Source: Rudanella paleaurantiibacter (GTDB taxonomy: Bacteria; Bacteroidota; Bacteroidia; Cytophagales; Spirosomataceae). Taken from it: a DNA stretch of 64,000 nt. Below are positions 40,574 through 58,046 of this stretch, piece by piece (within the stretch, counting starts at the first letter, position 1; each line of letters opens with the position of its first letter). The stretch lies in contig NZ_WELI01000006.1 of assembly GCF_009184635.1 (NCBI RefSeq), forward strand, positions 434,001 through 498,000. Reading direction: 5' to 3'. The position numbers and the translations under genes are program-made. A model generated the notes under the pieces. The model was not told where the DNA came from. It ran no database searches and was given only the letters and a program-made list of their open reading frames with translations.

Positions 40574-40634
40574 AAAAGACGACCGACGGGGCCGTAGATT
40601 CCGTAAGTTTATCCCACTTACCTCCCCGCTCCGC

Positions 40635-41765
40635 ATGAACTGGAACCGAACACTTCTTTGGGGGATTACCCTCCGGCAGCTGGCGCTGATTCTGAGCTTT
40701 TATAGCGTAGCGGCCCTGCTGTATAATCTAGCCCTGTGTATCAGTGAGCGGCCCTGGAGCCAGGATTCCCTCTGGGTCGATTTCTGGCAGGGGCTTCCCC
40801 GTATCGGTCTCGACTACCTGTGTAAGCTGGCGTTTACATTGCCGGTTTGGTATGTTCTGTTTGTGCGGCTTCGGCACGTGCCGCTGGTTCGGCGCGTGGG
40901 CCTGCACCTCTTGTTTTTGCCCTTGTACATTGTTGGTTGGCAGGTAGTATATTACACCATTTCGGATGGGCTGGGCCTGGGTCGGCTTCGCGGAACCGGC
41001 ATTGTTTGGGATACGTATATTTCCACACTTTTCTACCTGGTTCAGTTTGGGATTTTTCACGCCTACAGCTACTACCGGGATCATCAGCGGCACCGTATCC
41101 GGGAGGCCGAACTGCGCGAGCTGGCCGTGCAAAGTGAACTCTCGGCCCTGAAAGCGCAGCTCAACCCGCATTTTCTGTACAATGTGTTCAACACGATTAG
41201 CGCGTCGGTGCCGCCCGAGCAGGAGCATACCCGCGAGTTACTGGCCGATTTGTCGGATATGTTTCGGTACCAGGTGCGGGCGTCGCGGACCGAGTGGGTA
41301 CCCGTGCAGGATGAGCTGACGTTTGTTCGGAAATACCTTGATCTGGAAACCGCCCGCTTCGGCGACCGGCTTCAGGTGCGGCTCGACGTACCCGATGAGG
41401 TACTGAATCTGGCCATTCCGCCCATGCTGTTGCAACCTATCGTCGAAAACTCGGTTAAGCACGGCATATCGCCCCTGATTGAGGGGGGCGAGGTTCGCGT
41501 TAGCCTGCATCGGGAGGCCAACGCCCTGCTGGTCGAAATAGCCGATACGGGTGCGGGCATGCGTACGTCGGTGGGGGCCGGGCAGGGGGTCGGGCTGGCC
41601 AATACCCGGCTGCGGCTGGAGAAAATGTTTGGCGGTGAGCTGACCGTGATGGCTAACGAACCACAGGGCACCCGGGTAGCCTTTCGGGTACCTCTCAGAC
41701 TAATGGCGGGTGAGGTTCAGAAAACTGACGGGCAACCGGCCACCCAATTCGTAGTTAACCCGTAG
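40635..41765 (+). CDS. LytS-type sensor histidine kinase
   Basis: A 376-residue kinase from ATG 40635. Four hydrophobic segments cover about residues 8-150. The kinase part begins QSELSALKAQLNPHFLYNVF with the phospho-acceptor His179, the hallmark of LytS/YehU-type kinases (His_kinase). The ATP-binding part has PPMLLQPIVENSVKHG (N-box), ADTGAGM and GVGLANTRLRL. No extracellular sensor domain is visible, so the signal is probably sensed by the membrane part. It lies 14 bases before its LytTR partner. Confidence 0.92.
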   Translation: MNWNRTLLWGITLRQLALILSFYSVAALLYNLALCISERPWSQDSLWVDFWQGLPRIGLDYLCKLAFTLPVWYVLFVRLRHVPLVRRVGLHLLFLPLYIVGWQVVYYTISDGLGLGRLRGTGIVWDTYISTLFYLVQFGIFHAYSYYRDHQRHRIREAELRELAVQSELSALKAQLNPHFLYNVFNTISASVPPEQEHTRELLADLSDMFRYQVRASRTEWVPVQDELTFVRKYLDLETARFGDRLQVRLDVPDEVLNLAIPPMLLQPIVENSVKHGISPLIEGGEVRVSLHREANALLVEIADTGAGMRTSVGAGQGVGLANTRLRLEKMFGGELTVMANEPQGTRVAFRVPLRLMAGEVQKTDGQPATQFVVNP

Positions 41766-41779
41766 CGGAACAGATACCG

Positions 41780-42523
41780 ATGCAAAAAGTCATTATCATA
41801 GACGACGAGGCCGCCGGGCGAACACTCATCCGGCAGTATCTGGCCGATTATCCCGCCCTTGTAGTGGTGGGCGAAGCCAACAATGGGGTCGATGCCGTGC
41901 GGCTGATTCGCGAGTTTCGGCCCGATCTTATTTTTCTGGATGTGCAGATGCCCGGCCTTTCGGGGTTTGAGGTGCTGGGGCATCTGGACGAAATTCCGCA
42001 GGTGATTTTCTCGACCGCCTACGATCAATATGCCTTGCAGGCTTTTGAGGTACACGCGGTCGACTATCTGCTCAAACCCTACACCCGCGAGCGATTTGCG
42101 CAGGCTGTGCAGCGCGTAACCCGGCCCGATTCGGTCAATATTCAGCGGCTTCAGCCCTTAGCCGAAAGCCTGCTTACCCCGGCCGTAGCCGCTGAACGCT
42201 ACCCCGACAAGGTGCTGGTGCAAACAGGCAACCGGCTCGTAACGGTGGCCGTGGCCGATGTGATTCGGATCGAGGCCGAGGGCGATTATGCCATGTTGGT
42301 AACGGCCCAAAGCCGCCACCTGAGCAATTATGGCATTGGCGCGCTGGAGGCCCGGCTCGACCCGCGTCAGTTTATTCGGGTGCATCGTTCCGACATTGTC
42401 AACCTGCATTACGTTCGCGAGATTCAGAAATACCCGTCGAGCTACGATGTTATCCTGCAAAACGGCGACGTGGTCCGGGTGAGCCGGTCGTATATGGAAA
42501 AAATCCGCGAGCTGACATTTTGA
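41780..42523 (+). CDS. LytTR-family response regulator
   Basis: A 247-residue regulator. The receiver domain (1-120) has the acidic pair Asp8-Asp9, phospho-acceptor Asp54 (IFLDVQMPGLSGFE) and Lys in LLKPY. The C-terminal LytTR DNA-binding domain (about 145-245) has DVIRIEAEGDYAMLVTA, FIRVHRSDIVNLHYVREIQ and RVSRSYMEKIREL. It is the partner of the LytS kinase just upstream. The likely binding site is the direct repeat in front of the kinase gene. Its stop faces the CRTAC1 operon end, 29 bases away. Confidence 0.93.
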   Translation: MQKVIIIDDEAAGRTLIRQYLADYPALVVVGEANNGVDAVRLIREFRPDLIFLDVQMPGLSGFEVLGHLDEIPQVIFSTAYDQYALQAFEVHAVDYLLKPYTRERFAQAVQRVTRPDSVNIQRLQPLAESLLTPAVAAERYPDKVLVQTGNRLVTVAVADVIRIEAEGDYAMLVTAQSRHLSNYGIGALEARLDPRQFIRVHRSDIVNLHYVREIQKYPSSYDVILQNGDVVRVSRSYMEKIRELTF

Positions 42524-42552: not shown

Positions 42553-45500
42553 TCAACCTCTACTGCCTGCACCCGAGCGCAGAGGTCGAAATACCTGCAT
42601 AGGAGCCCCGTTGCGCGCAACGAGAACCAACGGTCCCTGCCCTGTACGAATGTGATTAATCGCCCGAATTTCGCCCCGGAGTACCAGACCGCTTTCGGTA
42701 GGTGGCACGGCGGTAAATTTGCCCGCACCGTTGTTGCGTAGGAGTAAGCCGTAGCTGGCGTCGTATCGGCCCTGATACGTGCTGACGCTGTAAAAATTAC
42801 CCCCCAGTAGTACGTCGGGCCGGCCGTCGCCTGTGACATCCTGTACATCGAACGCAAAAATGGGCGCGGTTTGAGCCAGCACGGGTAGCTTGTGTATCCG
42901 AAACCGCAGCGACTTGTCTGACTCGGTCCCCAGATTCTCAATCCACACCGACTCGAACGTATTAACCTCCCGCATGCCATCCTCAACCAGTTCCGAGGAC
43001 TCAAAAATCTCGTCCAGGGTCTTGCCCGAAAAATCGCGGTAGTTGTCGAATCGTTTGTTCAGAAACGGCAGTGATTTGCCCAGTTCATCTTTGGTGGCTA
43101 CCGGATACCACTTGTTCTGGTACCGGTAGGCCATCACCTGATCGAAGCGCGCACCTGAGTTGGTGTAGTCACGGGCATATAGCCGCACGGCCCCGTCGGT
43201 TCCGCGCCGGAATTTGGTGTTTTGGCCCAGGTTTCCGGCCAGAAAATCCATATCACCATCACCGTCGAGGTCGGCGGGTTTGAGCGTTTGCCAGAATCCC
43301 ACGGCCTGCGCCAGCCCGGTATCGTCGGCTTCGGTCAGGTTGCCACCGTCGTTGCGGTACACCCGGATTGGGGCCCAGTGACCAGCCGTAACCAGGTCGG
43401 GGTCGCCATCGCGGTCGAGGTCATGCCAGAACGCGTCGGTCAGCATACCGCCCTGTTGCAAAGCCGGGGCCCGCCGGGCGGTTTGGTCCGAGAACCGCAC
43501 GCGACCATCTCGTCCTTTGCCTTCGTTGATGAGCAGAAACGACGGGGGCGACTGTCCGTACCGGAAGCCCACCACCCGGCCCGCCACAAACAGGTCGAGG
43601 TCGCCATCGCGGTCAATATCGGCGGCTGCCACACTGCTTTTATTGGCGTGCAGGGAGGGCAACGCGAGCGAGTCTTTCTGGAACCGACCCGTACCATCGT
43701 TCAGGTAAAGCCGGTCGAGCAGTTCGAGGCTCTGCCCGGTAAACTCGTTCCCCCCCGACACCACGTACAGGTCGGGGTCACCATCACCGTCGGCATCAAA
43801 AAATAGGCTACCTACGTCTTCGCAGTTGACATCGGCCCTAAACGCGCTCGAATCCGTGCGGAAGGTGCCGTTCGGTTGCTGGACAAACAGGCAACTCGTT
43901 TGGTGACGGGCACCTCCCATAAAGAAATCGTCGAGCCCGTCGGCGTTGACGTCGGCCACGGCCAGTTTGGGGCCTTCGGTCGATACCTTGAAGGGTAGTA
44001 GCGGCTCGCGACCGAAATCGAAATACATGTTTTCGGCATGTTGGAAGGCCACCTGTGTGCTATCGCCCTCGGCAAACAGCGGTTGGGCCGGGGGGCGCAC
44101 CGGGTTGGCAATGCCCGGCCGGGCGTTGCTTTGCTTAAGCGTCAGGGCCTGATTGGCCTTTACACCGGTCAGAATCTGCCCCGTACCATCGGGCCAAAGC
44201 ACCCACAGCGAATCGACGGTGTTCTGACCGCCCAGCCCGAAGGTCAGGCGGGGCTCTACCGACGACATAAAGCCGCGTGTTGGGCTGTTTTGTTGCAATA
44301 ACAGGCCGGTTTTCGTTTTCAGAACCACTTTGGCGCCTACCCCAAACCGGTTTGAGCCGGTGCCGGTCAGGTTTACTTGCAGAAAATGGTTGTTGGTGAG
44401 CGTGTTCGCCTGGTTTTCGAAAATACCGGCCGGGCTGTTTATGTTGTTCGTAATCAGGTCGAGGTCGCCATCGTTGTCCAGGTCGGCATAGGCGGCTCCG
44501 TTGGTGTAGCCCGTCTCGGCAAAGCCCCAATCGAACGATTTGTCCACAAATTGCAGGCTGTCGGTGCCTTTGTAGAGGTACGGATGCACGCGGCCATCGG
44601 GCATTTGGGCTAGGGCATCGTTGGAGGCATTTGGCCCAAACGTCTGCGACGAGATGTACTTGAGATACTCCAGGTCGTTGGGTCGCCGAACAATACCGTT
44701 GGAGATAAACAGGTCTTTGATGCCGTCGTTATCGAAGTCGGCCAGCAGGGGTGCCCAGCTCCAGTCGGTGGCGGCAATCCCGGCCATGAGCCCAATATCG
44801 ATAAACCGTTGCCCGGCCATGCTCAGTTGCAGGCAGTTGCGGGTGTATTGGTTCATGTACCCGTACGTGAGTTTGTACTGGTAAATGTCGAGTGGGTCTT
44901 CGCCGTTGGAGGCTTTCTCAACAGCCGGGTCTTCGGGGTACATATCCACCGAAATCACATCCTGAAATCCGTCGTTGTTGATGTCGGCCACGTCGTTCCC
45001 CATCGAGAAACGACTTGTATGGCCAAACGCTTTCCGTACTTCTTCCCGAAAGCCGCCTTTCTGATTGTTAACGTAGTAGTAATCGTCTTCGTGGAAGTCG
45101 TTGGAAATGTACAGGTCTTCCCAACCGTCGTTGTTTATATCGGCTACCGATACCCCCAGCCCGTAGCCCATTACGGTGGCAAAAATACCGGCCTGTTCGC
45201 TTACGTCGGTAAAGCCTTTGGTGCCACCATCGTTCCGAAACAGGTAATCGCCCGATTCGCGGTTGCGGATGAGCCGGGTGCGCACGTGGTCGTAACTGCG
45301 GGAGGTGTGCACAGCATGGTTGAGCAGAAAGCAGTCGAGGTCGCCATCGTGGTCGTAATCGAAAAAGGTGGCTTGTGTTGAGAAGCCAGCAAAATCGAGA
45401 CCATATTCGGCGGCTCGTTCGGTAAACGTCGGAATGCTCAGACCGTCGGGGCCTTTCGTACCGGGGCCGTTGTTAATGTACAGCTGATTGGCACCCTTCA

Positions 45501-45936
45501 ACCCTTTGAACTGACTCACAGCGCACACGTAAATATCGAGCCAGCCATCGCCGTTTACATCGGCCACGGTGACGCCGGTTTGCCAGTCGGCCTTACCGTT
45601 GTCGGCCTTAGCGGGTTGGGTCACGTCGTCGAACTGCATCCCGCCCCGGTTCAGGTACAGCTTGTTGGGCTGCTGGTTCGAAACAAAATACAGGTCAGTT
45701 TTACCGTCATTGTTAAAATCGCCGGCGGCTACCCCTCCTCCGTTGTAGAAGTAGAGGTAATCCAGAATAGACAGACTGTCGGTTTCGTGCAGCTGATTCT
45801 GGAAACGGATACCGGTCCGGGTCGAGTCGAGCCGGGCAAACAGGCTATCTTTAGCCGGTTCGGAGCCGCCCGAACAGGCCGACAGCAGCACCGGTAGCCC
45901 GATGATTAACCCGAGAAAAACGCGTAGTTGGGTCAT
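42553..45936 (-). CDS. CRTAC1-like FG-GAP/VCBS repeat lipoprotein with ASPIC/UnbV domain (copy 1)
   Basis: An 1127-residue lipoprotein (signal GLIIGLPVLLSAC, Cys21), last gene of the SusC/SusD operon. It is built from about a dozen FG-GAP/VCBS repeats with the calcium-binding pattern DxNxDGxxD, for example GDFNNDGKTDLYFVSN, ADVNGDGWLDIYVC, FDYDHDGDLDCFLLN and ADLDNDGDLDLITN. An ASPIC/UnbV domain lies at about residues 520-600 (GVGAKVVLKTKTG, GFMSSVEPRLTFGLGG and WVLWPDGTGQIL). The repeats should form one or two beta-propellers on the cell surface. The function is unknown; adhesion or substrate binding is plausible. The C-terminus ends GAPMQVFRPLRSG. Confidence 0.85.
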   Translation of the reverse strand: MTQLRVFLGLIIGLPVLLSACSGGSEPAKDSLFARLDSTRTGIRFQNQLHETDSLSILDYLYFYNGGGVAAGDFNNDGKTDLYFVSNQQPNKLYLNRGGMQFDDVTQPAKADNGKADWQTGVTVADVNGDGWLDIYVCAVSQFKGLKGANQLYINNGPGTKGPDGLSIPTFTERAAEYGLDFAGFSTQATFFDYDHDGDLDCFLLNHAVHTSRSYDHVRTRLIRNRESGDYLFRNDGGTKGFTDVSEQAGIFATVMGYGLGVSVADINNDGWEDLYISNDFHEDDYYYVNNQKGGFREEVRKAFGHTSRFSMGNDVADINNDGFQDVISVDMYPEDPAVEKASNGEDPLDIYQYKLTYGYMNQYTRNCLQLSMAGQRFIDIGLMAGIAATDWSWAPLLADFDNDGIKDLFISNGIVRRPNDLEYLKYISSQTFGPNASNDALAQMPDGRVHPYLYKGTDSLQFVDKSFDWGFAETGYTNGAAYADLDNDGDLDLITNNINSPAGIFENQANTLTNNHFLQVNLTGTGSNRFGVGAKVVLKTKTGLLLQQNSPTRGFMSSVEPRLTFGLGGQNTVDSLWVLWPDGTGQILTGVKANQALTLKQSNARPGIANPVRPPAQPLFAEGDSTQVAFQHAENMYFDFGREPLLPFKVSTEGPKLAVADVNADGLDDFFMGGARHQTSCLFVQQPNGTFRTDSSAFRADVNCEDVGSLFFDADGDGDPDLYVVSGGNEFTGQSLELLDRLYLNDGTGRFQKDSLALPSLHANKSSVAAADIDRDGDLDLFVAGRVVGFRYGQSPPSFLLINEGKGRDGRVRFSDQTARRAPALQQGGMLTDAFWHDLDRDGDPDLVTAGHWAPIRVYRNDGGNLTEADDTGLAQAVGFWQTLKPADLDGDGDMDFLAGNLGQNTKFRRGTDGAVRLYARDYTNSGARFDQVMAYRYQNKWYPVATKDELGKSLPFLNKRFDNYRDFSGKTLDEIFESSELVEDGMREVNTFESVWIENLGTESDKSLRFRIHKLPVLAQTAPIFAFDVQDVTGDGRPDVLLGGNFYSVSTYQGRYDASYGLLLRNNGAGKFTAVPPTESGLVLRGEIRAINHIRTGQGPLVLVARNGAPMQVFRPLRSGAGSRG

Positions 45937-45947
45937 GGAGTTGAGTC

Positions 45948-48900
45948 TTACTTCAGCCGGGAGATAAGTTGGGCCCGGTCATTATTCTTGGCCAATGCAA
46001 TGAATTGCTTGCCGTTGGCACCGCGTACGGGTAACATCTGACGCACTTGTCCGCGCACCATGAAACCAGTTTGTTCGGGGCGGGTTGGCTTAAGCTGAAG
46101 CTTACCATTGCCCAGCAACAACAGGCCGTAGTTGGCATCGTACCGACCCAGTTCGGTGAGCACGTCGAAGAAGTTGCCGGTCAGCAGCAGGTCGAGATGT
46201 CCGTCGCGGTTGTAGTCGTCAGCCAGAATCGCGTGGATAGGCGAGGTTTGGGCTTCCAGCGGCAGGGCCTGTAGTCGGAACACCCCGTTACCATCGTTGA
46301 TGAGCAGCGAGGTAGCCCCGGTATGCACCGTTCGAACGGTCATGCCTTCGCGCTGCCCAGCGTTGAAAATAGCTTCAAAGCTGGCATTGGCGTAGTCGGT
46401 ATGCTTAATGTACTGCGTTTTAATCGACGGAATCCGTTTCTGCAAATCGGGTTTTTGCACCATCACGCAGGGTCGGCGCTCCCCGTCCTGCGTGGGTCGG
46501 TAGCAAGTCATGATCTGCTCATAGGCTCCGTTGCGGTCAAAATCGTTGCCGTATAGTTGGGCGGGCTCGTCGGGGGTGGCCGTCAGTCGGGAGTTAAGCC
46601 CAAGGTTACCCACCACAAAGTCAAGGTCGCCATCGCGGTCGAGGTCGGCAGCCTGAATACTGTTCCACCAGCCACCCGATTGCTCCAGCACGTCGCTCTC
46701 CAGGCGTTCGAAACCCTTGCCCGCTTTGTTTTTCAGAATCGTGATGGGCATCCAGTCGCCAACCAGAACCAGGTCGGGGTAGCTGTCTTTGTCTATATCA
46801 GCCCAAACGGCATCTTTCACCATCCCGATTTCGTCGGCAAACGGAATCAGCGTGGCTACGTCGTTGCGGAAATTGCCCTTACCGTCGTTCACCAGCAAGA
46901 CTTGCGGTGGGTTTTTGCCGTACTGACCGGGTATTTGCCGTCCACCCACAAACAAATCGAGGTCACCATCGCGGTCGAAGTCGGCGGCTTTTACGCAGGA
47001 GTTAGCCACCAGCGTGCGGGCCAACCGACGGTCCCAGACAAAGTTACCGGCTCCGTCGTTGATGTACAGGCGGTCGAGCAGGGGGCCGGGGTCGTCGAAC
47101 TCGTTGCCGCCCGTGGCTACGTACAAATCTAAATCACGGTCGCCATCGGCGTCGAAAAAGGTAGCGGCTACATCCTCAGAGTATAGGGCATCGAGTAGGA
47201 AAGGCTGTTTTTGCGGCTCAAAAGTGCCATCGGGGCGTTGGCGCATAAGTACACGGGGCATATCAACGGCCCCACCCATAAACACATCGTCGAGGCCATC
47301 GCCGTTTACATCGCCCACGGCCAACGCCGGTCCCTCGCGCGAGAGCATCTGTTTCAGCAACCCATCGCGGTTGTAATCGACAAACTCATTTTCGCGGTGT
47401 ACGAGGCTGAACCGGGCAGGCTCGGTCACGTCGGCAAACCAGTTTCCGCTTTTGATGGGAGCCGCCCCTACCGGTACGGCCGGGGCCGTTTGGTCCGCTT
47501 TGGTGTAAGCCAGCGTGAGAGTCGTGTTGGCTTTGGGTTGCCGAATGACCTGTTTCCGGTTGTCGGGCCAGATTACCGTGACCGAGTCAATGGCGGGGGA
47601 GTCGCCCAGGCCGAACACCATCGTCAAGTCGACCGACGACTGAAAACCCCGATTGGGCATCTGTTGCAGATACTGGGTTTGGCCGGGCTGATGCACAAAT
47701 ACCTTTGTTCCAATGCCGTTGGGGTTACCACCGTTGCCCGCCAGTTTTACGCGCAGGTATTGCTTCTTAAACTGCTCCACGGCCCGGTTTTTATAGATCG
47801 AAACGGGCGCATCGTTGTTGTTCACTACCAGGTCGAGGTCGCCGTCGTTGTCGAGGTCACCATAGGCCGAGCCATTCGAGAACGAGGGCGTGTCGAGGCC
47901 CCAGGCTTTGGCTTCGTTGGCAAACTGCAAACCATTGGCTCCCAGATTGCGGAACGCGTAATTGGACAGGGGCGTGGAGCCCATTTTGTTGACGTACTCT
48001 TTGTAATCAAACTTTTTGGTGCCCTCAATCATGCTCTGCAAGTCGGGGTTGTCGGCCAAAAATGCGATAAAGTCCTGATCGGTAAGGTCTTTCAGAATCC
48101 CGTTGGCCACAAACACATCTTTCAGGCCGTCCATGTCCATGTCGAACAGCAGGGCACCCCAGCTCCAGTCAGTGGCGTAGGTACCCGTCATACGGCCTAT
48201 TTCCGAGAATGTGCCGTTGCCGTTGTTGAGGTGCAGCATGTTGCGCGAGTCCTGATGGTAAAAGTCCCGCGACTCTTTCAGTTGGTTCAGTTCGTAGCTG
48301 TCGAACGAGGTGGTGGTTTTAAGCCGATAATCGTTTTCGGGCATCATGTCGGTCACGAAGATGTCCAGATTACCGTCGTTATTAATGTCGGCTACGTCGG
48401 CACCCATCGAGGCCAGGCTGATGTGGCCCATCTGGTTCTTGCTGTCTTCCTTAAACGTGCCGTTCTGTTGGTTGATGTACAGGTAGTCGCGCTCGTAGAA
48501 GTCGTTGGAAATATAAATGTCGGGCCAATTGTCGTTGTTCACATCGCCGATGGTGATGCCCAGCCCGAAACCAATGAGCGAACCGTAAATACCCGCTTCT
48601 TCGGAAACGTCGACGAAAAGAGGAGAGGAGGCTGCTTCGGATGACGCATTCGCTTTCCCCTCTTTCTTCCGTTCCTCCAGCCTGTTTTTGAACAGTTTGT
48701 CGCCCCCCAGTCGGTCTCGGGTGTCGCGGGTGTTGGCAAAACCGAGCCGGTCCATCGGGGTGAAACTGTTGTTGAGCAGGTACATATCGAGGTCACCGTC
48801 GCGGTCGTAGTCGAAAAAGGCCGCGTGGGTCGAGAAGCCCCCGTCGACCAGCCCGTACTCAGCGGCTTTCTCCACGAAGGTGGGCATGGCTACCTCGCCG

Positions 48901-49388
48901 GGTTTGGCCGGGGTTTTCACGCCCTGATTAATGTAGAGCTGATTGCCGCGTTCGTCGCGACTGCCGGAGTTGCACACGTAAATGTCGAGCCAGCCATCAC
49001 CGTTCACATCGGCCAGCGTTACCCCCGTCGACCAGAACTTCTTGCCGCTGATACCCACCGATTGGGTGGCGTTCACAAACTTGATGTCGCTTGTGCCGGG
49101 CTGTGTATTGTTGAGATAGAGCTGGTTGTCCTCAAAATTAGACGTCAGAAACAGGTCAGGTCGGCCGTCGTTGTTCACATCACCAATGGCCACTCCACCC
49201 CCGTTGTAGAAGTTCCGGTAGTTGAAGATATTAAAGTTTTTACGGTCTAAGCTCCGGTTGGCAAAGTCGACGCCGGTTTGGCTGGCGGGCAGGCTTTCAA
49301 ACAGCGTCGGGCCGTCGGTTCCTCCGCATCCGACCAGTAGGGTAGTGAGGGCTGCTGCGCCAATCCATTTAGGGAATGAGTTCAACAT
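45948..49388 (-). CDS. CRTAC1-like FG-GAP/VCBS repeat lipoprotein with ASPIC/UnbV domain (copy 2)
   Basis: An 1146-residue paralogue of the other two, with lipoprotein signal ALTTLLVGC (Cys21). The opening FYNGGGVAIGDVNNDGRPDL is the same in design as the other copies. It carries the same repeat layout (ADVNGDGWLDIYVCNSGS, ADINNDGNLDIFVTDMMP, ADLDRDGDLDFVVGNLGLN) and the ASPIC/UnbV segment (GIGTKVFVHQPGQ, FQSSVDLTMVFGLG). It has an extra Lys/Glu-rich piece near residue 235 (RLEERKKEGKANASSEAASS). It starts 5 bases after the stop of copy 3 and ends 11 bases before copy 1. No enzyme motif is visible. Confidence 0.85.
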   Translation of the reverse strand: MLNSFPKWIGAAALTTLLVGCGGTDGPTLFESLPASQTGVDFANRSLDRKNFNIFNYRNFYNGGGVAIGDVNNDGRPDLFLTSNFEDNQLYLNNTQPGTSDIKFVNATQSVGISGKKFWSTGVTLADVNGDGWLDIYVCNSGSRDERGNQLYINQGVKTPAKPGEVAMPTFVEKAAEYGLVDGGFSTHAAFFDYDRDGDLDMYLLNNSFTPMDRLGFANTRDTRDRLGGDKLFKNRLEERKKEGKANASSEAASSPLFVDVSEEAGIYGSLIGFGLGITIGDVNNDNWPDIYISNDFYERDYLYINQQNGTFKEDSKNQMGHISLASMGADVADINNDGNLDIFVTDMMPENDYRLKTTTSFDSYELNQLKESRDFYHQDSRNMLHLNNGNGTFSEIGRMTGTYATDWSWGALLFDMDMDGLKDVFVANGILKDLTDQDFIAFLADNPDLQSMIEGTKKFDYKEYVNKMGSTPLSNYAFRNLGANGLQFANEAKAWGLDTPSFSNGSAYGDLDNDGDLDLVVNNNDAPVSIYKNRAVEQFKKQYLRVKLAGNGGNPNGIGTKVFVHQPGQTQYLQQMPNRGFQSSVDLTMVFGLGDSPAIDSVTVIWPDNRKQVIRQPKANTTLTLAYTKADQTAPAVPVGAAPIKSGNWFADVTEPARFSLVHRENEFVDYNRDGLLKQMLSREGPALAVGDVNGDGLDDVFMGGAVDMPRVLMRQRPDGTFEPQKQPFLLDALYSEDVAATFFDADGDRDLDLYVATGGNEFDDPGPLLDRLYINDGAGNFVWDRRLARTLVANSCVKAADFDRDGDLDLFVGGRQIPGQYGKNPPQVLLVNDGKGNFRNDVATLIPFADEIGMVKDAVWADIDKDSYPDLVLVGDWMPITILKNKAGKGFERLESDVLEQSGGWWNSIQAADLDRDGDLDFVVGNLGLNSRLTATPDEPAQLYGNDFDRNGAYEQIMTCYRPTQDGERRPCVMVQKPDLQKRIPSIKTQYIKHTDYANASFEAIFNAGQREGMTVRTVHTGATSLLINDGNGVFRLQALPLEAQTSPIHAILADDYNRDGHLDLLLTGNFFDVLTELGRYDANYGLLLLGNGKLQLKPTRPEQTGFMVRGQVRQMLPVRGANGKQFIALAKNNDRAQLISRLK

Positions 49389-49393
49389 GGGTT

Positions 49394-52300
49394 TTACTTT
49401 CCTTTGTTCAGTACGGTGATTCCTTGGCCGTGTGTGCTAATAAAGAGTTGATTCCCGGCCTGCTTGGCGTCGCGTACGTCGCCTTGTACAAACAGGCCGG
49501 TTTGGGTCGAGGGCAGTTCAGCAAACTGCCAGTTTCCGCGGTTAGCCAGTACCAGACCCCGGTTGGCATCGACCTTGCCAATGCGTAACCGAAACTGGCT
49601 GTTGTTGCCCAGCAAAAGGAGGTCGGGCTTGCCGTTCCGGTCGAAATCGTGGACTACAATCCCGTACACCGGTGCCGACTGCGCCAGTATGGGCAACGTA
49701 TGCGGCACCAGCTTACCGTTGTTGTTTTCAAGCACGAGGGTCTGCACCGTTGTGAGCTGTTTCTGTTGGCTCTGTTTCAACTGTTCAGGGTCGAAGCAAT
49801 CGGCGAGGGTTGCCCCTGCGTAGAGTTTGTAGCTCGTAAATTTCCGGCGTAACACTGGCAACTGCTCACACAGCTCATCGCGGGAGTAAGCCGGGAATAC
49901 CCCACCACCCACAGTGTAGTTCATCACAAAATCGATGGTGCCATTCGCATCGAAGTCGTTGTAAATAAGCGTGGCAGGTTGCTCTGCTGACGCCCGAATG
50001 GGCGTATTCAGCCCCAGATTGCCTACAATCAGGTCGTCGTCGCCATCGCCGTCGAGGTCGGCTTTTTCAAGACGATTCCACCAGCCGGCCAGGTCGTCGT
50101 ATCGTTGGGCCGCCTTGGGGTCGAAGGTGCCGCGTTGGTTAAGTAAGGTTGTTACGGGCATCCATTCACCCACCACCACCAGATCGGGCCAGCCGTTGCG
50201 GTCCAGGTCGGTCACGGCAATGTCGGAAACCAGCCCCAGGTTGCCCAGCGACTGTTTGCGGAACCGGGCCTTGCCCTCATTGATGAGTAAAAAGGTTTCG
50301 TCGGATAGCGGGAACCGGTACGATTGAATCGACCCGCCCACAATCAAATCCAGATCCCCGTCGCGGTCCAGATCGAGTGCCTTCACGCAACTGCTATTGG
50401 TAGTTTCGGCCGGTAGCGGGGCCGGCACAAACCGCCCTTGTTGGTTGAGCCAAAGCCCATCCTGCCGGTGGTCGGGCTCGCGCGCGGCATACCCGCCATT
50501 CACCACGTACAGGTCGAGGGTTCCGTCGCCGTTTAAGTCGGCCAGCAGGGCATCCTGATTGGTTTTTCCCTCCCGGACCGGACGGTCCAGTCCGGGACCG
50601 TCCAGTCCGGGAACCGCAACGGGTTGGAATGTGCCGCCTGCCTGGCGAAAGAGTTGCCCCTGTTGCCGGGCATTACCGCATACAAACAGGTCGGGCTGTC
50701 CGTCGGCATCAATATCCCCAATAGCCATTCGGGGGCCGGTGGCGGTGTACTGCATGGGTAGCAGCACCTGCCGGTCAAACGCGTTGATGGAATCGGGTCG
50801 GTGCGCGTACGGCACGGTAGGCCCGGCTGTAAATAGGGTTGCTGGCGTTGGCGTAGTGGGTTGCTGGGTTGCCGTTGCGCTGCGGTACGAGAGGGTCAGT
50901 GTTTGATCGGGTTTGACCGAGGGGAGCGTTTGCGTGCGTCCGTCGGGCCAGCGCACCGTCACCCGAACGGGCTCGGCCGAGGCTCCCAGCCCAAACAGCA
51001 GGTTATCGTGGCTGCACGATTCGAACCCCCGCGTTGGGAAATACTCCTGCACCTGCGTTTGCCCGGCTCGTTCAACCGTCAGACGCGCCCCAATGCCAAA
51101 GGGGTTTTGGGTAGGTCCCTGTAGCCGGAGGCTCAGGTAATGACTTTGGGTACGCTCGCGGGCCTGATTTTGGTACACGCGGGCTGGTTCGTTGAGGTTG
51201 TTGGTGATCAGGTCGAGGTCGCCGTCGTTGTCGAGGTCGGCATAGGCGCACCCGTTCGACGTGGTGAGTTCGTCAAAACCCCAGGCTTGCTGCTGATTAC
51301 TGAAGGTCAGATCGCCGTTGTTGCGAAAAATGTAGTTTTTAGAGCGAGTACTGGGCATCTGCTTAATCTGCTCCAGCACTGGCAGCGACTTCCCTTCGGC
51401 ATCATCCGAAAATTTGACAAAATCGGCATCGGTAAAGTCGCGCAGTACCCCGTTGGTCACAAAAATATCCTTGAAGCCATCCAGATCGTAGTCGGCCAGT
51501 AGCACTCCCCAGCTCCAGTCAGTAGCGGCTACGCCCGCCAATTGACCCAGTTCGGAAAAGGTGCCGTTGGGCTGTTGCACCTGAAGCATATTGCGCATGT
51601 TCTGATGCCAGAAACCATTGCGAAGCTGGGCCTGATACACATTCCAGTTGTCGGGCCAGGGTAGGGTTTTCTGACGCTCGTTGCTCTCCGGCATCATGTC
51701 GAGCGTCATCAGGTCAGGGCGGTTATCGTTGTTGATGTCAGCTACATCGGCACCCATCGATGAGTATGAAGTATGGGCGATTCGGGACCGGAGTTCGTCG
51801 CGAAAAACGGGGCCATCTGTGCCGGTTGTTCCCTGATTGATGTAGCAGTAATCGTCTTCCACGAAATCGTTGGTGACGTAAATATCGGGCCATCCGTCGT
51901 TGTTCAGGTCCGATACAGCGCAGCTCAACCCAAAACCGAGGGGGTTGCCCCGAATGCCTGCCTGCTCCGATACGTCGACGAAGCGGTTGCCCTCATTCCG
52001 AAACAGCTTGTCGCCCGCGTTGGGGTCGCGCCGGTTGCGCATTACAGCGGCCTCCTGCCGTTGGTAGTTTGAGAGGTTGTGATTGATTAGGAAACAGTCA
52101 AGGTCGCCGTCGCGGTCGTAATCAAAAAAGGTGGCCTGTACCGAATAACCCCGGTCATCGAGGCCGTATTGAGCCGCCTGTTCGGTGAAGGTAAGGTTGT
52201 GGTTGTTGATGAAAAGTTGGTTTGGCCGCTCGGTTTCGGGGTGGAGCCCCGAGTAGCAAATGTAGATATCGAGCCAGCCATCAGCGTTTACATCGGCGAG

Positions 52301-52654
52301 GGTTACACCGGTTTTCCAGCCGCCCGGCCGCCCCGAGATACCGGCTTTGTCGGTCATGTCCGAAAAGGCCAGTTTGGCGGTGCCGGGTTCGGTTTGGTTG
52401 ATGTATAGCTTGTTGCCAACCTGATTGCCAGTAAACAGGAGGTCGACCCGGCCGTCGTTGTTCAGATCGCCAGCGGCTACCCCCCCTCCATTATAAAAAT
52501 ACTCAAATGCGAGTACGTTTTCCCCCTCTGTTTCCTGTAGTTGATTGGTAAACGTGATACCGGTCTGGGCCGGGTCGGTTTTTTCAAACAACGGAGTGTC
52601 CGTTGAACAGGAGCCAAGAGCGAGTAACGCACTCAACAATACTAGGTTTCTCAT
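49394..52654 (-). CDS. CRTAC1-like FG-GAP/VCBS repeat lipoprotein with ASPIC/UnbV domain (copy 3)
   Basis: A 1086-residue paralogue and the first of the three in the operon, with lipoprotein signal LLSALLALGSC (Cys16). It opens with FYNGGGVAAGDLNNDGRVDL. It shows the same order of FG-GAP repeats, ASPIC/UnbV domain (FGIGARLTVERAG, GFESCSHDNLLFGLGA, TVRWPDGRTQTL; here Cys-Ser-His replaces the usual SSV) and a second repeat block to the end. It lies 132 bases downstream of SusD. The three paralogues differ clearly in sequence, so this is an old triplication rather than a recent one. Confidence 0.85.
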   Translation of the reverse strand: MRNLVLLSALLALGSCSTDTPLFEKTDPAQTGITFTNQLQETEGENVLAFEYFYNGGGVAAGDLNNDGRVDLLFTGNQVGNKLYINQTEPGTAKLAFSDMTDKAGISGRPGGWKTGVTLADVNADGWLDIYICYSGLHPETERPNQLFINNHNLTFTEQAAQYGLDDRGYSVQATFFDYDRDGDLDCFLINHNLSNYQRQEAAVMRNRRDPNAGDKLFRNEGNRFVDVSEQAGIRGNPLGFGLSCAVSDLNNDGWPDIYVTNDFVEDDYCYINQGTTGTDGPVFRDELRSRIAHTSYSSMGADVADINNDNRPDLMTLDMMPESNERQKTLPWPDNWNVYQAQLRNGFWHQNMRNMLQVQQPNGTFSELGQLAGVAATDWSWGVLLADYDLDGFKDIFVTNGVLRDFTDADFVKFSDDAEGKSLPVLEQIKQMPSTRSKNYIFRNNGDLTFSNQQQAWGFDELTTSNGCAYADLDNDGDLDLITNNLNEPARVYQNQARERTQSHYLSLRLQGPTQNPFGIGARLTVERAGQTQVQEYFPTRGFESCSHDNLLFGLGASAEPVRVTVRWPDGRTQTLPSVKPDQTLTLSYRSATATQQPTTPTPATLFTAGPTVPYAHRPDSINAFDRQVLLPMQYTATGPRMAIGDIDADGQPDLFVCGNARQQGQLFRQAGGTFQPVAVPGLDGPGLDRPVREGKTNQDALLADLNGDGTLDLYVVNGGYAAREPDHRQDGLWLNQQGRFVPAPLPAETTNSSCVKALDLDRDGDLDLIVGGSIQSYRFPLSDETFLLINEGKARFRKQSLGNLGLVSDIAVTDLDRNGWPDLVVVGEWMPVTTLLNQRGTFDPKAAQRYDDLAGWWNRLEKADLDGDGDDDLIVGNLGLNTPIRASAEQPATLIYNDFDANGTIDFVMNYTVGGGVFPAYSRDELCEQLPVLRRKFTSYKLYAGATLADCFDPEQLKQSQQKQLTTVQTLVLENNNGKLVPHTLPILAQSAPVYGIVVHDFDRNGKPDLLLLGNNSQFRLRIGKVDANRGLVLANRGNWQFAELPSTQTGLFVQGDVRDAKQAGNQLFISTHGQGITVLNKGK

Positions 52655-52786
52655 TACCCGTTAAAACGTCTATCGCTCGTGATAAGTGCAGCCATCCGGG
52701 TAGATTCTTACCCTTTCTGGTCAGGTTAGAATGCAAACAGCAGCCCTCAACGAGCTGCTGTTTGCCGAAATACAGATTAGTTACGC

Positions 52787-54340
52787 TTAGTAACCGAAGT
52801 TCTGCTTCAGGTTCGGGTTTGTATCGATAGCCTGCTGCGGAATTGGGTACACCACGCGGTGCGGGGGCGTTGGAGTCGGCTTCTGATCGAACGGATTCAG
52901 GAAAGTACCGAACCGAACCATGTCGTTCCGGCGCCAGCCTTCCCAGTACAGTTCGCGGCCACGCTCGGCCAACAGAGCGGCTTCGTTCACGCTGGTCAGG
53001 TTTGAAGCGCCCCGGGCGGTCCGAACCTGGTTAACCAGGCTAGCTACCGTAGCACCACCCGTAGCCGTGCCACCGCGCAGGATAGCCTCAGCTTTCATCA
53101 GGAGTACGTCGGCGTAGCGGAACATAACGTAGTCGTTACCGCTGTTATCGATGTCGGTTGGATCTGGGAAGTATTTAACAACCCGGATACCCATCCGCTC
53201 GTTAGCATACAGCAGGTTTACATCAGGCGTAAACGTCAGCGGAGCACCACCGCGGTCGGTCAGCGGACGGCCCGCGCCGTTGGTTTGTTGACCAGCCAGG
53301 AAACCAGCCCGGAGACCAATAACATCGGTCATGCCAGGAATCGTAGCCCCCCGACGTTGGTCATTAGCTTCGAAGCTGTTGTAGAAATCAGCCAGCGTTG
53401 TAAAGCCGTTCCAGCCCGATGGCGTCTGGTTGTAGTGCAGCGTCATGTAGAACCGGTTCCGGGCGTTGGCCGGAGCGGCTCCTTTGTCGTTCCGCAGGGC
53501 AAATACCAGCTCCCGTGAGAGCGTTGAGTTGTCCCAGTGGAAGTTGTCGAAATACTGGCCTGATGGCTCCAGAGCAAACGTGCCTGAGTTGATGATTGCA
53601 TCACAGTTAGCAATCACCGCGTTCATGTCGCCCTGAGCGAACGTGAAAGGACCCTGTGGCTGCTGTGGGTTCTGTACGAACACAGCTTTGTTCAGCATCA
53701 CTTTAGCCATCAGGAACTGACCGGCGGCCCGTGTCGCTGTAGTCTGCGATGCGTTGGCCGTTGTGGGCAGGCCTGGAATGGCCGCTGTCAGGTCGTCAAT
53801 GATAAACTGCGTGGCTTCAGCCCGCGAGAGTACCCGTGGGTTGGTGTCGAAGCTGGCGTTGGCTTCACGGAAAGGTACCTGACCGTAGAGGTCAACAATG
53901 TGGTACATGAAGAACGCCCGCAGAAAACGACCCTGCGCCAATACCGAGGGGTTGCTTTGAGCCGCAGCAATCAGTTCCGTTGCCCGGAAAACACCCGTGT
54001 TCAGCTGGTTCCAGGTAGCTACAATTTGGTTGTGCGTAGCGTCCCAGGTGTGCTGGTGCAAACGGCGCCAGGTACCAAAGTCGTCCCAGTCAGTACCACG
54101 GGTTGGCCCCATCATCTCATCGGATGAGTGCTCGCCCATGGCGTAGGTGTTCGCTTGGTCCGTAAGGCCGTTCAACTGACCGTAAACACCACTGAGCAGA
54201 CTGGTCAAATCGACCTGAGCGCCCGGACGTTGGGTAACGTCGACTGGCTGACCAATTACTTTATCTTCCAGGTCCGTACAGCCTACAGCGGTAAACGCCA
54301 GAGTAGCTGCAATGACAAGAGTCAAATTGGAGGTTTTCAT
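52787..54340 (-). CDS. RagB/SusD-family outer-membrane lipoprotein
   Basis: A 517-residue SusD-like protein. ATG 54340 gives the lipoprotein signal TLVIAATLAFTAVGC (Cys21). Conserved features are TDLEDK at the mature N-terminus, AQGRFLRAFFMYHIVDLYG and VPFREANASFDTNPRV in the TPR-like core, then NDYVMFRYADVLLMKAEAIL, and ARGASNLTSVNEAALLAERG with GRELYWEGWRRNDMVRFGTF near the end. It forms the surface lid of the adjacent SusC channel and binds its ligand. The fold is all-helical. The substrate is not predictable. Confidence 0.93.
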   Translation of the reverse strand: MKTSNLTLVIAATLAFTAVGCTDLEDKVIGQPVDVTQRPGAQVDLTSLLSGVYGQLNGLTDQANTYAMGEHSSDEMMGPTRGTDWDDFGTWRRLHQHTWDATHNQIVATWNQLNTGVFRATELIAAAQSNPSVLAQGRFLRAFFMYHIVDLYGQVPFREANASFDTNPRVLSRAEATQFIIDDLTAAIPGLPTTANASQTTATRAAGQFLMAKVMLNKAVFVQNPQQPQGPFTFAQGDMNAVIANCDAIINSGTFALEPSGQYFDNFHWDNSTLSRELVFALRNDKGAAPANARNRFYMTLHYNQTPSGWNGFTTLADFYNSFEANDQRRGATIPGMTDVIGLRAGFLAGQQTNGAGRPLTDRGGAPLTFTPDVNLLYANERMGIRVVKYFPDPTDIDNSGNDYVMFRYADVLLMKAEAILRGGTATGGATVASLVNQVRTARGASNLTSVNEAALLAERGRELYWEGWRRNDMVRFGTFLNPFDQKPTPTPPHRVVYPIPQQAIDTNPNLKQNFGY

Positions 54341-54466
54341 TTTTTGTTTTCGTATTTGAACAAAAAAGTTAACAGTTCCTTGCACAAGCAAGAATTGTGT
54401 GTTGAACTAAATTGTTATACTTTTTCTTGAAATCTGTCTGGAGACAAATTCTGATGAACAAACAGA

Positions 54467-57400
54467 TTAGAAGCCTACGCTAACACCAAAGGTGAACGTG
54501 CGGGCCGTTGGGAATGCACCGTAGTCAATACCCAGTGAAGGAATACCGTCAATTGACTTGCTGACGTTCACCTCTGGGTCGATACCCGAGTAGTTCGTGA
54601 ACAGCAACAGGTTCTGACCCGTTACCGAGAAGCGGATGCTCTTGGCAAACGTGGCAGACTTCAGTGGGAGGCTGTAACCTACCGTCAGGTTCGACAGACG
54701 AACGAAATCGCTCTTCTCCAGGAAGCGGGTAGAAACCAGCGGTGGGTTCAGGGCGTTTTCGGCGCTATTGGCCTCTTCGCGGGTTACGTTACGGCCGTTA
54801 CGCAGGTTACCCTTCGTAAATACAGCGTTGGCGGTGTTGTTGTAAATGTAGCCACCGGTTACCCCGTTGAGGAAGATGCTGGCGCTCCAGTTGCCATACG
54901 TGAAGTTGTTCGTCAAACCGAAGTTGAACGTCGGAATGGCGCTTCCCTGATAAACCAGTTGCAGCGAGGGGTCGGTGTACTGACCAAAACCGTTGTTATC
55001 ATAGCCAGAGAACGTCGGCATGAAGAACGAGAACAGCGGGAGGTCGTTTACAATCCGCTGAGCAAAAGCACCTGTCAGACCCTGACCGTTGATTTCACCC
55101 GTGTTGTACAGACCTGAGAAGTTCGATACGCGGTTCCGCAGGAACGTAGCGTTGGCCGACACATCCCAGCGCAGTTTGCTTTGTGGCAAGATGTCATAGT
55201 TAACCGCTACTTCCAAACCGCTGTTGATTACGTTGGCAGGCAGGTTGATCCAGCGGGCACGAGCCGGTGCTGGTGCAGCGTACAGGGCTTCAAACAGGAG
55301 GTCTTTGGTATTCCGGTTGAAGTAGTCAACCGTAGCCGTCAACCGACCATCGAAGAAACCAAGGTCAACACCCGCACCATACTGCATGGTTTGCTCCCAG
55401 CGCAGGTTGTCGTTTGGCGTAATATCGCGGGCAACCCCTGAACCACTGTTCACAAACGAGAAGCGGTTACGAGTCAGCGTAGAGGGGAATTCCTGGTTAC
55501 CAGTGATACCCCAGTTACCCCGAACCTTGATGTCTACACCCAGATTCTTGGCAAACTCTTCCTGCGAAACTTTCCAGGCGGCTGCAAATGCAGGGAACGT
55601 ACCGTATTTGTTGTTAACCCCGAACTTCGACGAACCGTCGACCCGAACCGTAGCTGTGAGGAGGTACTTGTCCTGGATGTTGTAGTTCACCCGACCGAAG
55701 TACGACTGAAGCTCGCTCTGATCCCGGTCTGAACCACCTTCGTACGCTTTGTTCGTACCCAAGTTGTTGGCACCACCCAGGTTGTTGGTGTAGGGGAACA
55801 GCAGGTCGGCCTCAGGAATGAAGCGGCTGGCGGCTACGAAGCTACCCAGGTTCTCAAACTTCTGGTACGAGAAACCGGCAACGGCGTCTATGGTACCAAC
55901 ACCCAGTTTCTTGTTGTACGACAGCGTATGCTCGATCAGACGTGACTGACGAGTCCGGTTCTGAATGAATGCCGATCCGGCGTTGTCAGTAATGTCGAAA
56001 CCAGGAATGTTACGGAGGATGTTACCCCGACGTTCGGCCCGGGCGTTGTCCAGACCAAAGTTCATTTTGTACGACAACCCGTCGGTGATCTTCCAGGTAG
56101 CACCCAGGCTGGCGAGCGTACGAACCGTTTTTTGCTGATCGTCGATCATCTCCAGCAGAGATACCGGGTTACGGAACGTGTTACCGTTCGGGCGGCCTGC
56201 GCTGTTGTAGCCATCCGGGTTGAAGAAACGGCCCTGCGCATCGCGGATCGGATACGTTGGGTTAGCCTGGATAGCCGCCGTGATCAGGTTACCCTGGAAA
56301 CCGGCGTTGTCACCGTTAGGCACCAGAACGTCAGTCAGACCCGACGTAGTCATCGACAGGTCCAGAACTACCTTATCATTGAACAGCTCGTGTGAAGCAT
56401 TGATCCGGCCGGTCAAACGACGCAGCGCGGCCTTCTTGATAACACCTTGCTGATCTGAGTAACCCAGCGACATCTGGTAGCGCGTGTTGTCGTTACCACC
56501 ACCGTAGCTGATGTTGTAGTTTTGCGATACACCTGTGCGCAGAATGGCGTCCTGCCAATCGGTGCTGGCACCACCGTTTACGGATGGGGTAGTTGGGTCG
56601 CCACCAGCCCGGCGAACAGCGTCAGGATACTCACTGGCGTTGAGCAGGTCATACTTGCGCAGCACGCTTGAGATGCTCGTGTTAGCTGATATGTTCAGGG
56701 TCTGAGCACCTGCCTTACCTTTGCGAGTCGTAATCAAAACAACCCCGTTGGCACCCCGTGCACCGTAAATAGCGGCAGCCGACGCATCTTTCAGAACAGA
56801 GATGTTCTCAATATCGTCGGGGTTCAGGAAGTTCAGCGGGTTACGCGCAGGCTGACGGCCGGTACCGAAGTTCCGGTCACCGTTCGATACATCGCCACCG
56901 TCGAGGGGCACGCCATCAACAACAAACAGAGGGTTGTTGTTAGAACGCAGCGAAGCTGTACCACGAATACGGATGTTGATACCCGCACCTGGCTCACCGC
57001 TGGCAGGCGTAATCTGGATACCAGCCGCCCGGCCCTGGAGAAGCTGCTCAGGCGATGCAATTACCCCTTTGTTGAAATCTTTCGAGCCGAGTGCAACTAC
57101 TGAACCCGTTGCATCTTTTACTTTTTGCGTACCGTAACCAATTACGACAACTTCGCTCAGCGTTTTGTTGTCTTCGGCGAGTTGTACGTCAACGGTAGTG
57201 CGGTTACCAACAGCTACTTCCTGCGACGTGTAACCAATCGAGCTAAAAATCAGGGTAGCGTTGCCACCTACATTGTTCAGGCGGTAGTTACCATCGGCAT
57301 CGGTCGTGGTTCCCCGCGACTCACCTTTAACCTGCACCGTTACGCCGGGAATCCCCACGCTGCTGGCGGTTACCTTACCCGAAACGGTTTGGCCCTGAGC

Positions 57401-57550
57401 CCAGGCTGACTGTACGGTTACCAGAACCATTAGCGTCAGCATGGCTATAAAACTAAGCCATGTGGTGCGTCCAGACGACTGGAGTTGGCGGTTGCCAACC
57501 TGACCTACGTTGCCAACAAACTGGCTTCTTGTGTAGGATTTGTCCATCAT
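54467..57550 (-). CDS. SusC/RagA-family TonB-linked outer-membrane transporter
   Basis: A 1027-residue transporter from ATG 57550 (MMDKSYTRSQF). The signal-like segment is TWLSFIAMLTLMVLVTVQSA with cleavage near AQG. A carboxypeptidase-regulatory-like domain follows (TVSGKVTASSVGIPGVTVQV), then the linker LSEVVVIGYGTQKVKDATGS and the plug with IENISVLKDASAAAIYGARG and ANGVVLITTRKGKAG. The barrel runs to the C-terminus, ending in aromatic FTFGVSVGF. It imports large oligomers or peptides with TonB energy. It heads the operon with SusD and the three CRTAC1-like lipoproteins. Confidence 0.94.
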   Translation of the reverse strand: MMDKSYTRSQFVGNVGQVGNRQLQSSGRTTWLSFIAMLTLMVLVTVQSAWAQGQTVSGKVTASSVGIPGVTVQVKGESRGTTTDADGNYRLNNVGGNATLIFSSIGYTSQEVAVGNRTTVDVQLAEDNKTLSEVVVIGYGTQKVKDATGSVVALGSKDFNKGVIASPEQLLQGRAAGIQITPASGEPGAGINIRIRGTASLRSNNNPLFVVDGVPLDGGDVSNGDRNFGTGRQPARNPLNFLNPDDIENISVLKDASAAAIYGARGANGVVLITTRKGKAGAQTLNISANTSISSVLRKYDLLNASEYPDAVRRAGGDPTTPSVNGGASTDWQDAILRTGVSQNYNISYGGGNDNTRYQMSLGYSDQQGVIKKAALRRLTGRINASHELFNDKVVLDLSMTTSGLTDVLVPNGDNAGFQGNLITAAIQANPTYPIRDAQGRFFNPDGYNSAGRPNGNTFRNPVSLLEMIDDQQKTVRTLASLGATWKITDGLSYKMNFGLDNARAERRGNILRNIPGFDITDNAGSAFIQNRTRQSRLIEHTLSYNKKLGVGTIDAVAGFSYQKFENLGSFVAASRFIPEADLLFPYTNNLGGANNLGTNKAYEGGSDRDQSELQSYFGRVNYNIQDKYLLTATVRVDGSSKFGVNNKYGTFPAFAAAWKVSQEEFAKNLGVDIKVRGNWGITGNQEFPSTLTRNRFSFVNSGSGVARDITPNDNLRWEQTMQYGAGVDLGFFDGRLTATVDYFNRNTKDLLFEALYAAPAPARARWINLPANVINSGLEVAVNYDILPQSKLRWDVSANATFLRNRVSNFSGLYNTGEINGQGLTGAFAQRIVNDLPLFSFFMPTFSGYDNNGFGQYTDPSLQLVYQGSAIPTFNFGLTNNFTYGNWSASIFLNGVTGGYIYNNTANAVFTKGNLRNGRNVTREEANSAENALNPPLVSTRFLEKSDFVRLSNLTVGYSLPLKSATFAKSIRFSVTGQNLLLFTNYSGIDPEVNVSKSIDGIPSLGIDYGAFPTARTFTFGVSVGF

Positions 57551-58046
57551 AGGTTTTTGAAAAAGTTTGAAAAATAGTTGGGCGTTTTGTGGCTTGCGAA
57601 GGAAATAATTAACCACTCACGGTAAAGCAGACAAGTAAATGCCATAATTACCATCCTTTACAAGAGTAGCACATGGCTAACTGATCTTGAGGTAACTTAG
57701 CATCTTTGCCTGATGGAGTAGAACATTACCGGCAAACCATTAAGCAAATTACAATCTGTGATTCTTAAAATACAAATAGCTGTTTGCTAAAATGCAGTAA
57801 GAGTAGGTTAAAATGGTATTAGTTTGTCAAATAGGCGTGACAAGCTTTTTTGTATTATACTTATATTAATTCGATTAATTTGTAGTCATTCACAGTTACT
57901 TAGCCTTACGAATTTATGGGATCAATATAACTATTCATAGTATTGATAGGTCTGAATTCGGGAGCTTCCATATCTAAAAAAATGTTAATTTTGGGGTGCA
58001 ATTTTTACGAAAAAGAGGTTCCTTTTCGTATTACATTCCTACTCCA
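57551..58046. promoter_or_regulatory. AT-rich divergent region between susC-like and dehydrogenase genes
   Basis: No gene is visible in these 496 bases. The stretch 57840-57990 is much richer in A+T than its surroundings. TAATTTTG at 57986-57993 fits the Bacteroidota -7 element TAnnTTTG and points right, 54 bases before the dehydrogenase ATG; I found no convincing -33 partner. I found no clear promoter for the SusC operon by eye. No riboswitch or tRNA fold was recognised. Confidence 0.4.

Follow-up and report, generated by a model that had tools for sequence, protein, structure and literature searches.

The window analysed here is a stretch of 64,000 nucleotides of Rudanella paleaurantiibacter (contig NZ_WELI01000006.1, positions 434,001 to 498,000), in which the genes for the importer proteins SusC and SusD are followed, all on the minus strand and in one direction (42553-57550), by three genes for CRTAC1-like lipoproteins, here called CR1, CR2 and CR3. 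On balance, we favour the view that these five genes code for one half of a saccharide-uptake machine, the half for capture and import, and that elsewhere this machine is linked to a vanadium haloperoxidase. SusC would serve as the TonB-driven channel and SusD as its lid, and CR1-CR3 would most likely gather around SusCD at the cell surface, there to bind or position a saccharide for the lid. A linked haloperoxidase may act on the ligand or else shield the cell; in this genus the enzyme tail, made up of the haloperoxidase and an enzyme of glycoside hydrolase (GH) family 65, appears to have separated from the propeller operon. The gene content, gene order, slot orthology, CR2 fold, selection, linkage and displacement on which this proposal draws were all computed, and it reaches beyond them in its surface exposure, complex formation, saccharide ligand and functional coupling to the haloperoxidase.

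Architecture of the locus

The SusC protein scores 706 bits against the TIGR04056 model of SusC/RagA transporters (cut-off 368). Its ATG at 57550 was read from the sequence, the longest open reading frame (ORF) being 54467-57616, and for SusD an inner ATG at 54340 is the more likely start (Table 1). All three CR proteins have the CRTAC1/ASPIC-UnbV arrangement of an FG-GAP propeller followed by an ASPIC domain, with Pfam matches of CR1, CR2 and CR3 to FG-GAP_3 at E-values of 4e-74, 7.4e-75 and 4.6e-71 and to UnbV_ASPIC at 6.2e-20, 1.5e-21 and 7.8e-21, respectively; an NCBIfam search of the three returned one domain match, below its cut-off. An earlier note on this DNA had described five genes on one strand, ending in three divergent paralogues, and this was confirmed by the ORFs, the Pfam matches, the short gaps (5 bases between CR1 and CR2, 11 between CR2 and CR3) and the pairwise identities (44% for CR2-CR1, 42% for both CR2-CR3 and CR1-CR3). 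The single design that it ascribed to the three was supported, with FYNGGGVA common to all of them; the ASPIC core reads WPDG in CR1 and CR3 and WPDN in CR2. Its expectation that all three are under selection is supported as well. Purifying selection acts on each of them, because the ratio of non-synonymous to synonymous substitution rates (dN/dS) against G002, a genome of the same genus, is 0.083 for CR1, 0.033 for CR2 and 0.051 for CR3; the corresponding values are 0.019 for SusC (947 codons) and 0.038 for SusD.

Table 1. Features of the SusCD-CR locus (positions in the window)
Feature	Position	Strand	Basis
SusC/RagA TonB-dependent outer-membrane transporter	54467..57550	-	TIGR04056; plug, barrel and CarbopepD_reg_2 domains
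SusD/RagB lipoprotein	52787..54391	-	SusD_RagB PF07980, E 4.9e-24
Spacer between SusD and CR1, 132 bp, with 14-bp stem-loop	52655..52786	-	Folding z -4.0
CR1, first-slot ASPIC lipoprotein, 1086 aa	49394..52654	-	Pfam, trees, model; clade seen in Spirosomataceae
CR2, second-slot ASPIC lipoprotein, apparently double-propeller, 1146 aa	45948..49388	-	Pfam, clade A, model, Foldseek
CR3, third-slot ASPIC lipoprotein, 1127 aa	42553..45936	-	Pfam; B side of trees

SusC and SusD stand side by side, as in polysaccharide utilization loci (PULs) of the SusCD type, and a scan of the genes from 36487 to 63953, small ORFs apart, found no carbohydrate-active enzyme. The locus was therefore not classed as a complete PUL.

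Fold of the CR proteins

The structure model of CR2, built from 42 aligned relatives, reached a mean pLDDT of 88.9 and a pTM of 0.90; that of CR1 was poorer (77.8 and 0.75, from 13 sequences). By Foldseek, the best match of the CR2 model in the Protein Data Bank is mouse CRTAC1 (9etn; E 6.5e-26, target TM 0.73, query TM 0.37), and the rows after it are mostly large propeller assemblies (DDB1, spliceosome SF3b) with low TM-scores. The sequence profile of CR1-CR3 also has CRTAC1 as its top match (E 3.4e-17), with integrins as weak matches. Since each CR protein carries seven DxDxD-type motifs ahead of the ASPIC domain and several behind it, each is best read as two cation-binding propellers joined by this domain, which we take to be TTR-like, the first propeller apparently being seven-bladed. 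CRTAC1 has in common with them the FG-GAP propeller and the ASPIC domain, but its solved chain of 551 residues is half as long, and the bacterial proteins add the second propeller and a lipoprotein-type start. Cys21 does not vary among the 42 CR2 rows, in keeping with a lipoprotein. The CR proteins would be exposed at the surface. Literature searches yielded no assigned role for bacterial ASPIC proteins.

Haloperoxidase genes behind the propeller genes

In relatives of the window locus, the gene after the last CR gene usually encodes a protein of the PAP2 superfamily. Its representative at locus L044 matches the vanadium iodoperoxidase of Zobellia (4cit/4usz) with an E-value of 8e-125, and the seven aligned positions that we assume to be catalytic are kept throughout 54 sequences, apart from one change of Ser to Cys. 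The 80 named loci were defined by the best 80 of 494 CR2 relatives and are thus the loci most like CR2; their contexts rest on ORFs picked by length and on home-made profiles, and several of them are contigs of metagenome-assembled genomes (MAGs), among which those assigned to Gemmatimonadota and Acidobacteriota may result from faulty binning. A haloperoxidase is encoded on the same strand in 45 of these 80 loci, directly behind a CR gene in 38 of the 45, and among the 62 loci with room for at least two genes after the last CR gene it is present in 43.

Similar linkage was found when 17 genomes of the family, chosen by hand for the ASPIC, haloperoxidase and GH65 comparisons, were considered. 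Of the haloperoxidases with 41% identity or more, 28 of 41 have an ASPIC domain no further than 8 kb away; for remoter homologues the figure is 1 of 23, and coverage alone would give about 2%. This count uses all 134 ASPIC positions and the first 64 haloperoxidase rows. Among genomes of the Flavobacteriaceae group, 175 of 397 have a match to the iodoperoxidase at E <= 1e-100. Twenty of their haloperoxidase loci were chosen by hand down the ranked match list, the top three being included on purpose; 18 of them have two or three CR genes upstream (with three genes between in two cases), and only L196 and L208 lack them. A 99% match to the Zobellia iodoperoxidase (G153, presumably Zobellia) lies 7 bp behind a CR triplet, ahead of which no SusCD was found in the ~4.5 kb read, and at the two 88% matches (L191 and L192) SusCD is present, with one opposed gene between. 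Relatives of this enzyme thus sit behind propeller genes in many relatives of the window locus, whereas none is encoded at the window locus and the nearest relative in the window genome is on another contig.

The absence of an enzyme, which the earlier note had stressed, holds for the window locus and for L043, a triplet of the same genus, but it does not extend to the triplets of L044, L045, L046, L060 and L061, in each of which a vanadium haloperoxidase gene comes next. By the note, relatives with a single CR copy and an enzyme in the same slot would have refuted its reading; this is borne out in part, for an enzyme does follow in relatives, but two or three propeller genes are kept. The titles and abstract openings listed by full-text searches of open-access papers contain no description of a linkage between SusCD, CRTAC1-like genes and a haloperoxidase. 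The linkage ties both SusCD and the ASPIC proteins, which are very common in the family (144 of 150 genomes, with 1-15 each and six in the window genome), to a solved iodoperoxidase.

Displaced enzymes

No window ORF of at least 120 aa matched the haloperoxidase profile, and the operon has no such enzyme of its own. Four haloperoxidase homologues are encoded elsewhere in the window genome. One of them, on contig C7 (46963-48279), clusters with the operon-linked enzymes (support 98) and shares 83% identity with that of L054; the stretch read beside it contains no SusD or CR gene, and a weak match to the SusC profile (74 bits) lies ~6.7 kb upstream. In two Spirosoma loci, L060 and L061, the operon continues with a protein of 239-243 aa and then a GH65 enzyme that passes the NCBIfam cut-off for kojibiose hydrolase (1130 and 1140 bits against 800). 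Relatives of both these proteins are encoded on contig C23 of the window genome (3771-6595), the GH65 being 83% identical to that of L060. In G002, the haloperoxidase and GH65 genes are 1.7 kb apart near 4.19 Mb and the triplet is near 2.60 Mb, 1.6 Mb away. Most simply read, the enzyme tail moved out of the operon in one piece within this genus; contigs C7 and C23 would then once have been neighbours. An 'enzyme-free' SusCD locus can, in other words, be an operon whose enzymes moved away. GH65 of the kojibiose-hydrolase type occurs in 9 of the 17 genomes, with a haloperoxidase no more than 6 kb away from 6 of the 9 copies (distances were compared over 31 haloperoxidase and 8 ASPIC positions). 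It is not a fixed part of the module, because G026, G043 and G107 have a triplet with a haloperoxidase and no such GH65.

Gene order and origin of the triplet

Triplets of CR genes spaced by ~3.4 kb are found in 6 of the 17 genomes (G000, G002, G004, G026, G043 and G107) and pairs in ten more; the remaining one, G054, is in 890 contigs. The order SusC-SusD-CR1-CR2-CR3 recurs in L043, L044, L045 and L047, and in L046 SusC and the three CR genes are present, with the ORF picked in the SusD slot lying on the opposite strand. A check proposed with the original description, that triplets should group by position, was run: in each of L043-L047 every CR gene best matches the window gene of the same slot. 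The CR2 of G002 is 97% identical to that of the window. The window genome also contains a paralogous locus (L040) with the order SusC-SusD-one CR-haloperoxidase.

Two trees were compared: one of 213 CR proteins, without those shorter than 900 aa and without L063 (it comes from the DNA that also gave L045), and one of 71 rows picked by hand, built under a mixture model. On the main points they agree. Clade A, which holds CR2, has 32 rows (support 100), and its members come from Flavobacteriaceae, Cytophagales, Sphingobacteriales and others, including one Gemmatimonadaceae MAG. CR3 falls on the B side, opposite 41 rows that hold clade A and CR1 (support 99), and B-side genes usually come after the A gene. 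CR1 lies in a clade of five rows (support 100), nearest to which are two single CR genes of the window genome and L068_7, a Telluribacter gene that sits in the third slot rather than the first and so breaks a strict slot rule. Clade A also takes in first-slot genes from Algoriphagus and from some Bacteroidales MAGs, and those of some Flavobacteriaceae are on the B side. A single origin of all first-slot genes was rejected, the constrained tree (14 first-slot rows in three groups) being 518 log units worse with a p-value of 1.65e-124 in the approximately unbiased test, which is post hoc in that the groups were named after the first tree was seen. A recent tandem triplication is ruled out by the identities of 42-44% together with the separate deep clades. 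CR2 and CR3 thus come from an old ordered pair to which CR1 was added later, and such pairs were extended to triplets more than once, because the first-slot genes fall in separate groups and their joint grouping is rejected.

The transporter keeps step with these changes. The clade of the window SusC has ten rows, nine of them distinct (support 98), and a CR1-type gene is present in 8 of the 9 distinct loci, the exception being L062 of Spirosoma fluviale; in another SusC clade (support 100) a small gene lies between the first two CR genes in 16 of 16 rows. By these trees, the SusC lineage tracks the layout of the propeller genes behind it.

The spacer between SusD and CR1

The folding z-score given for the spacer between SusD and CR1 also takes in 14 nt of SusD. 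Stems of at least 9 bp occur in 57 of 63 SusD-CR spacers, 5 of 25 SusC-SusD spacers, 1 of 15 CR-CR spacers and none of 23 CR-haloperoxidase spacers, in a set that includes near-duplicate loci and was compared with simple base shuffles. The hairpin is not a mark of CR loci alone: among 29 SusD 3' ends compared (of 45 SusD matches in the window genome) 15 have a stem-loop, compared with none of 29 in-gene windows, and a CR gene follows at least one of these SusD genes (L149). An intrinsic terminator was considered and set aside, the spacer not being among the sites of the terminator scan; a scan for sigma-70 promoters found 7, with 7.3 expected. We infer that the stem-loop is an attenuator or a processing site.

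Ligand and function

The genes beside other CR loci give some indication of what is imported. Those for GH127 lie beside L115 and L124, for GH13 with a SusG_C domain beside L122 and L125, and for GH97 beside L125; L094 has GH32, GH65 and GH100 with PfkB as neighbours, L132 an FGGY kinase, a xylose isomerase and an SSF symporter, and L105 a LacI regulator and an SSF symporter. Relatives of the L060 GH65 number 16 ORFs in the loci searched (15 genes, one of which is the displaced copy of the window genome). These neighbours point to saccharides as the ligand, probably differing by lineage, and in the case of the window the link to GH65 makes alpha-1,2-glucosides no more than a first candidate.

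The proposed machine has two partial precedents. The levan and dextran utilisomes of Bacteroides thetaiotaomicron, as described in the accessible part of the report (PMC7618045), likewise combine a SusCD core with further outer-membrane components, although in the present system these components are two to three CRTAC1-like propeller lipoproteins, next to which relatives usually have a haloperoxidase gene. In BtuB-BtuG, according to the available portion of its description (PMC10404256), a seven-bladed propeller that is a surface lipoprotein acts on a TonB-dependent transporter. However, BtuG is itself the lid, whereas here SusD is present and is not replaced by a propeller of that type, and the CR propellers are of the FG-GAP/ASPIC kind, two per chain; the likeness is in the mode of working only.

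Several observations weigh against an importer coupled to the haloperoxidase. No such gene is found in 19 of the 62 named loci with room for it, and the coupling may be loose, since the window triplet persists without an enzyme beside it. A GH65 match at E <= 1e-80 is missing from 8 of the 17 family genomes, and no single ligand follows from neighbouring sugar genes that differ between loci. The hairpin after SusD could mean that the CR genes are expressed separately. Finally, the CR proteins might themselves be catalytic, because the VCBS supercluster of propellers includes enzymes, namely the RGL11 lyase and AUDH, as stated in the accessible part of PMC8023676.

A bolder version of the importer proposal, which we put forward tentatively, would see an oxidative utilisome across Bacteroidota, in which the haloperoxidase lipoprotein, SusCD and the CR propellers act together, hypohalous chemistry at the surface preparing or defending the saccharide held for import, and in which the split enzyme tail of the window genome would work in trans.

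Rather unlikely, in our judgement, is the alternative that the module serves halide chemistry, with the haloperoxidase oxidizing iodide or bromide and the propellers and SusCD importing a halogenated or oxidized product or helping to accumulate iodine. The near-identical Zobellia enzyme directly behind a CR triplet is in keeping with it, as is the conservation of the presumed catalytic positions, and the module is present in Arenibacter nanhaiticus (L106). In Arenibacter strain C-21, iodine uptake needs glucose, oxygen and calcium, a haloperoxidase has been proposed for it, and the genome contains at least 5 homologues of 4USZ (PMC5064120); in Zobellia galactanivorans, one vanadium iodoperoxidase is raised on Ascophyllum compared with alginate, as given in the accessible part of PMC9296495. 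The iodine link is for the present a lead. Yet the window triplet has no linked enzyme, no peroxide-making oxidase was recognized among the neighbours scanned, and saccharide genes are common as neighbours. The module offers a testable system in this respect, through both growth on saccharides and iodine uptake.

Less probable still, the CR proteins would be adhesins or belong to a surface matrix, sharing the SusCD locus without contributing to import. FG-GAP repeats have been counted as cell-surface adhesion domains in marine flavobacteria (in the available part of PMC2668756), the CR profile has weak integrin matches, and the hairpin does lie between SusD and the CR genes; against this stands a SusC lineage that tracks the CR design, with regard both to the CR1-type gene and to the small gene of the other clade. 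The least probable reading is that the locus is an ordinary utilization locus with an unrecognized class of enzyme, the CR proteins being, for example, lyases related to the VCBS propellers: the supercluster does hold the RGL11 family and AUDH (PMC8023676, accessible part) and the CR proteins have many conserved acidic residues, but the closest solved fold is that of CRTAC1, the best 50 of 1018 Foldseek rows include neither an RGL11 nor an AUDH chain, and conserved acidic residues of this kind are to be expected where cations are bound.

Flanking genes and locus variants

A histidine kinase and a LytTR response regulator (40509-42523, plus strand) converge on the end of CR3. The pair is kept in G002 (L043) and none was seen beside the triplets of L044 or L045; it is therefore probably unrelated to the triplet. 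Beyond it lies an outer-membrane barrel protein with OMP_b-brl_3 and CarboxypepD_reg domains (38009-40546, minus strand), which is syntenic in G002. On the other side, one gene from the SusC start and outside the operon, a peptidase M1-type protein (61127-63091, plus strand) is the sole peptidase-like gene noted nearby.

Some variants were seen among the relatives. In G004, CR3 seems to span the ends of an apparently circular contig (the end of L047 and the start of L213), with a haloperoxidase ~240 bases behind. The SusD of G003 (L052:11357-12825) reads as two ORFs, either because it is broken or through a sequencing error. In G038, of the same genus as the window, L058/L059 is another large locus variant, in which the propeller genes are separated by DUF4249, Kelch and TonB-barrel genes. 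A scan of 85 downstream neighbours (same-strand genes of at least 150 aa, gaps of at most 250, at most three per locus) found a GyrI-like domain in 10, among them a 305-aa protein after the haloperoxidase at L094:17891-18808. The 187-aa lipoprotein of L088 has no Pfam or NCBIfam match; it belongs to the lipoprotein-like proteins of ~190 aa (L088:9366-9929 and similar) encoded between CR genes in one SusC lineage, of which 23 of 25 ORFs look alike by eye.

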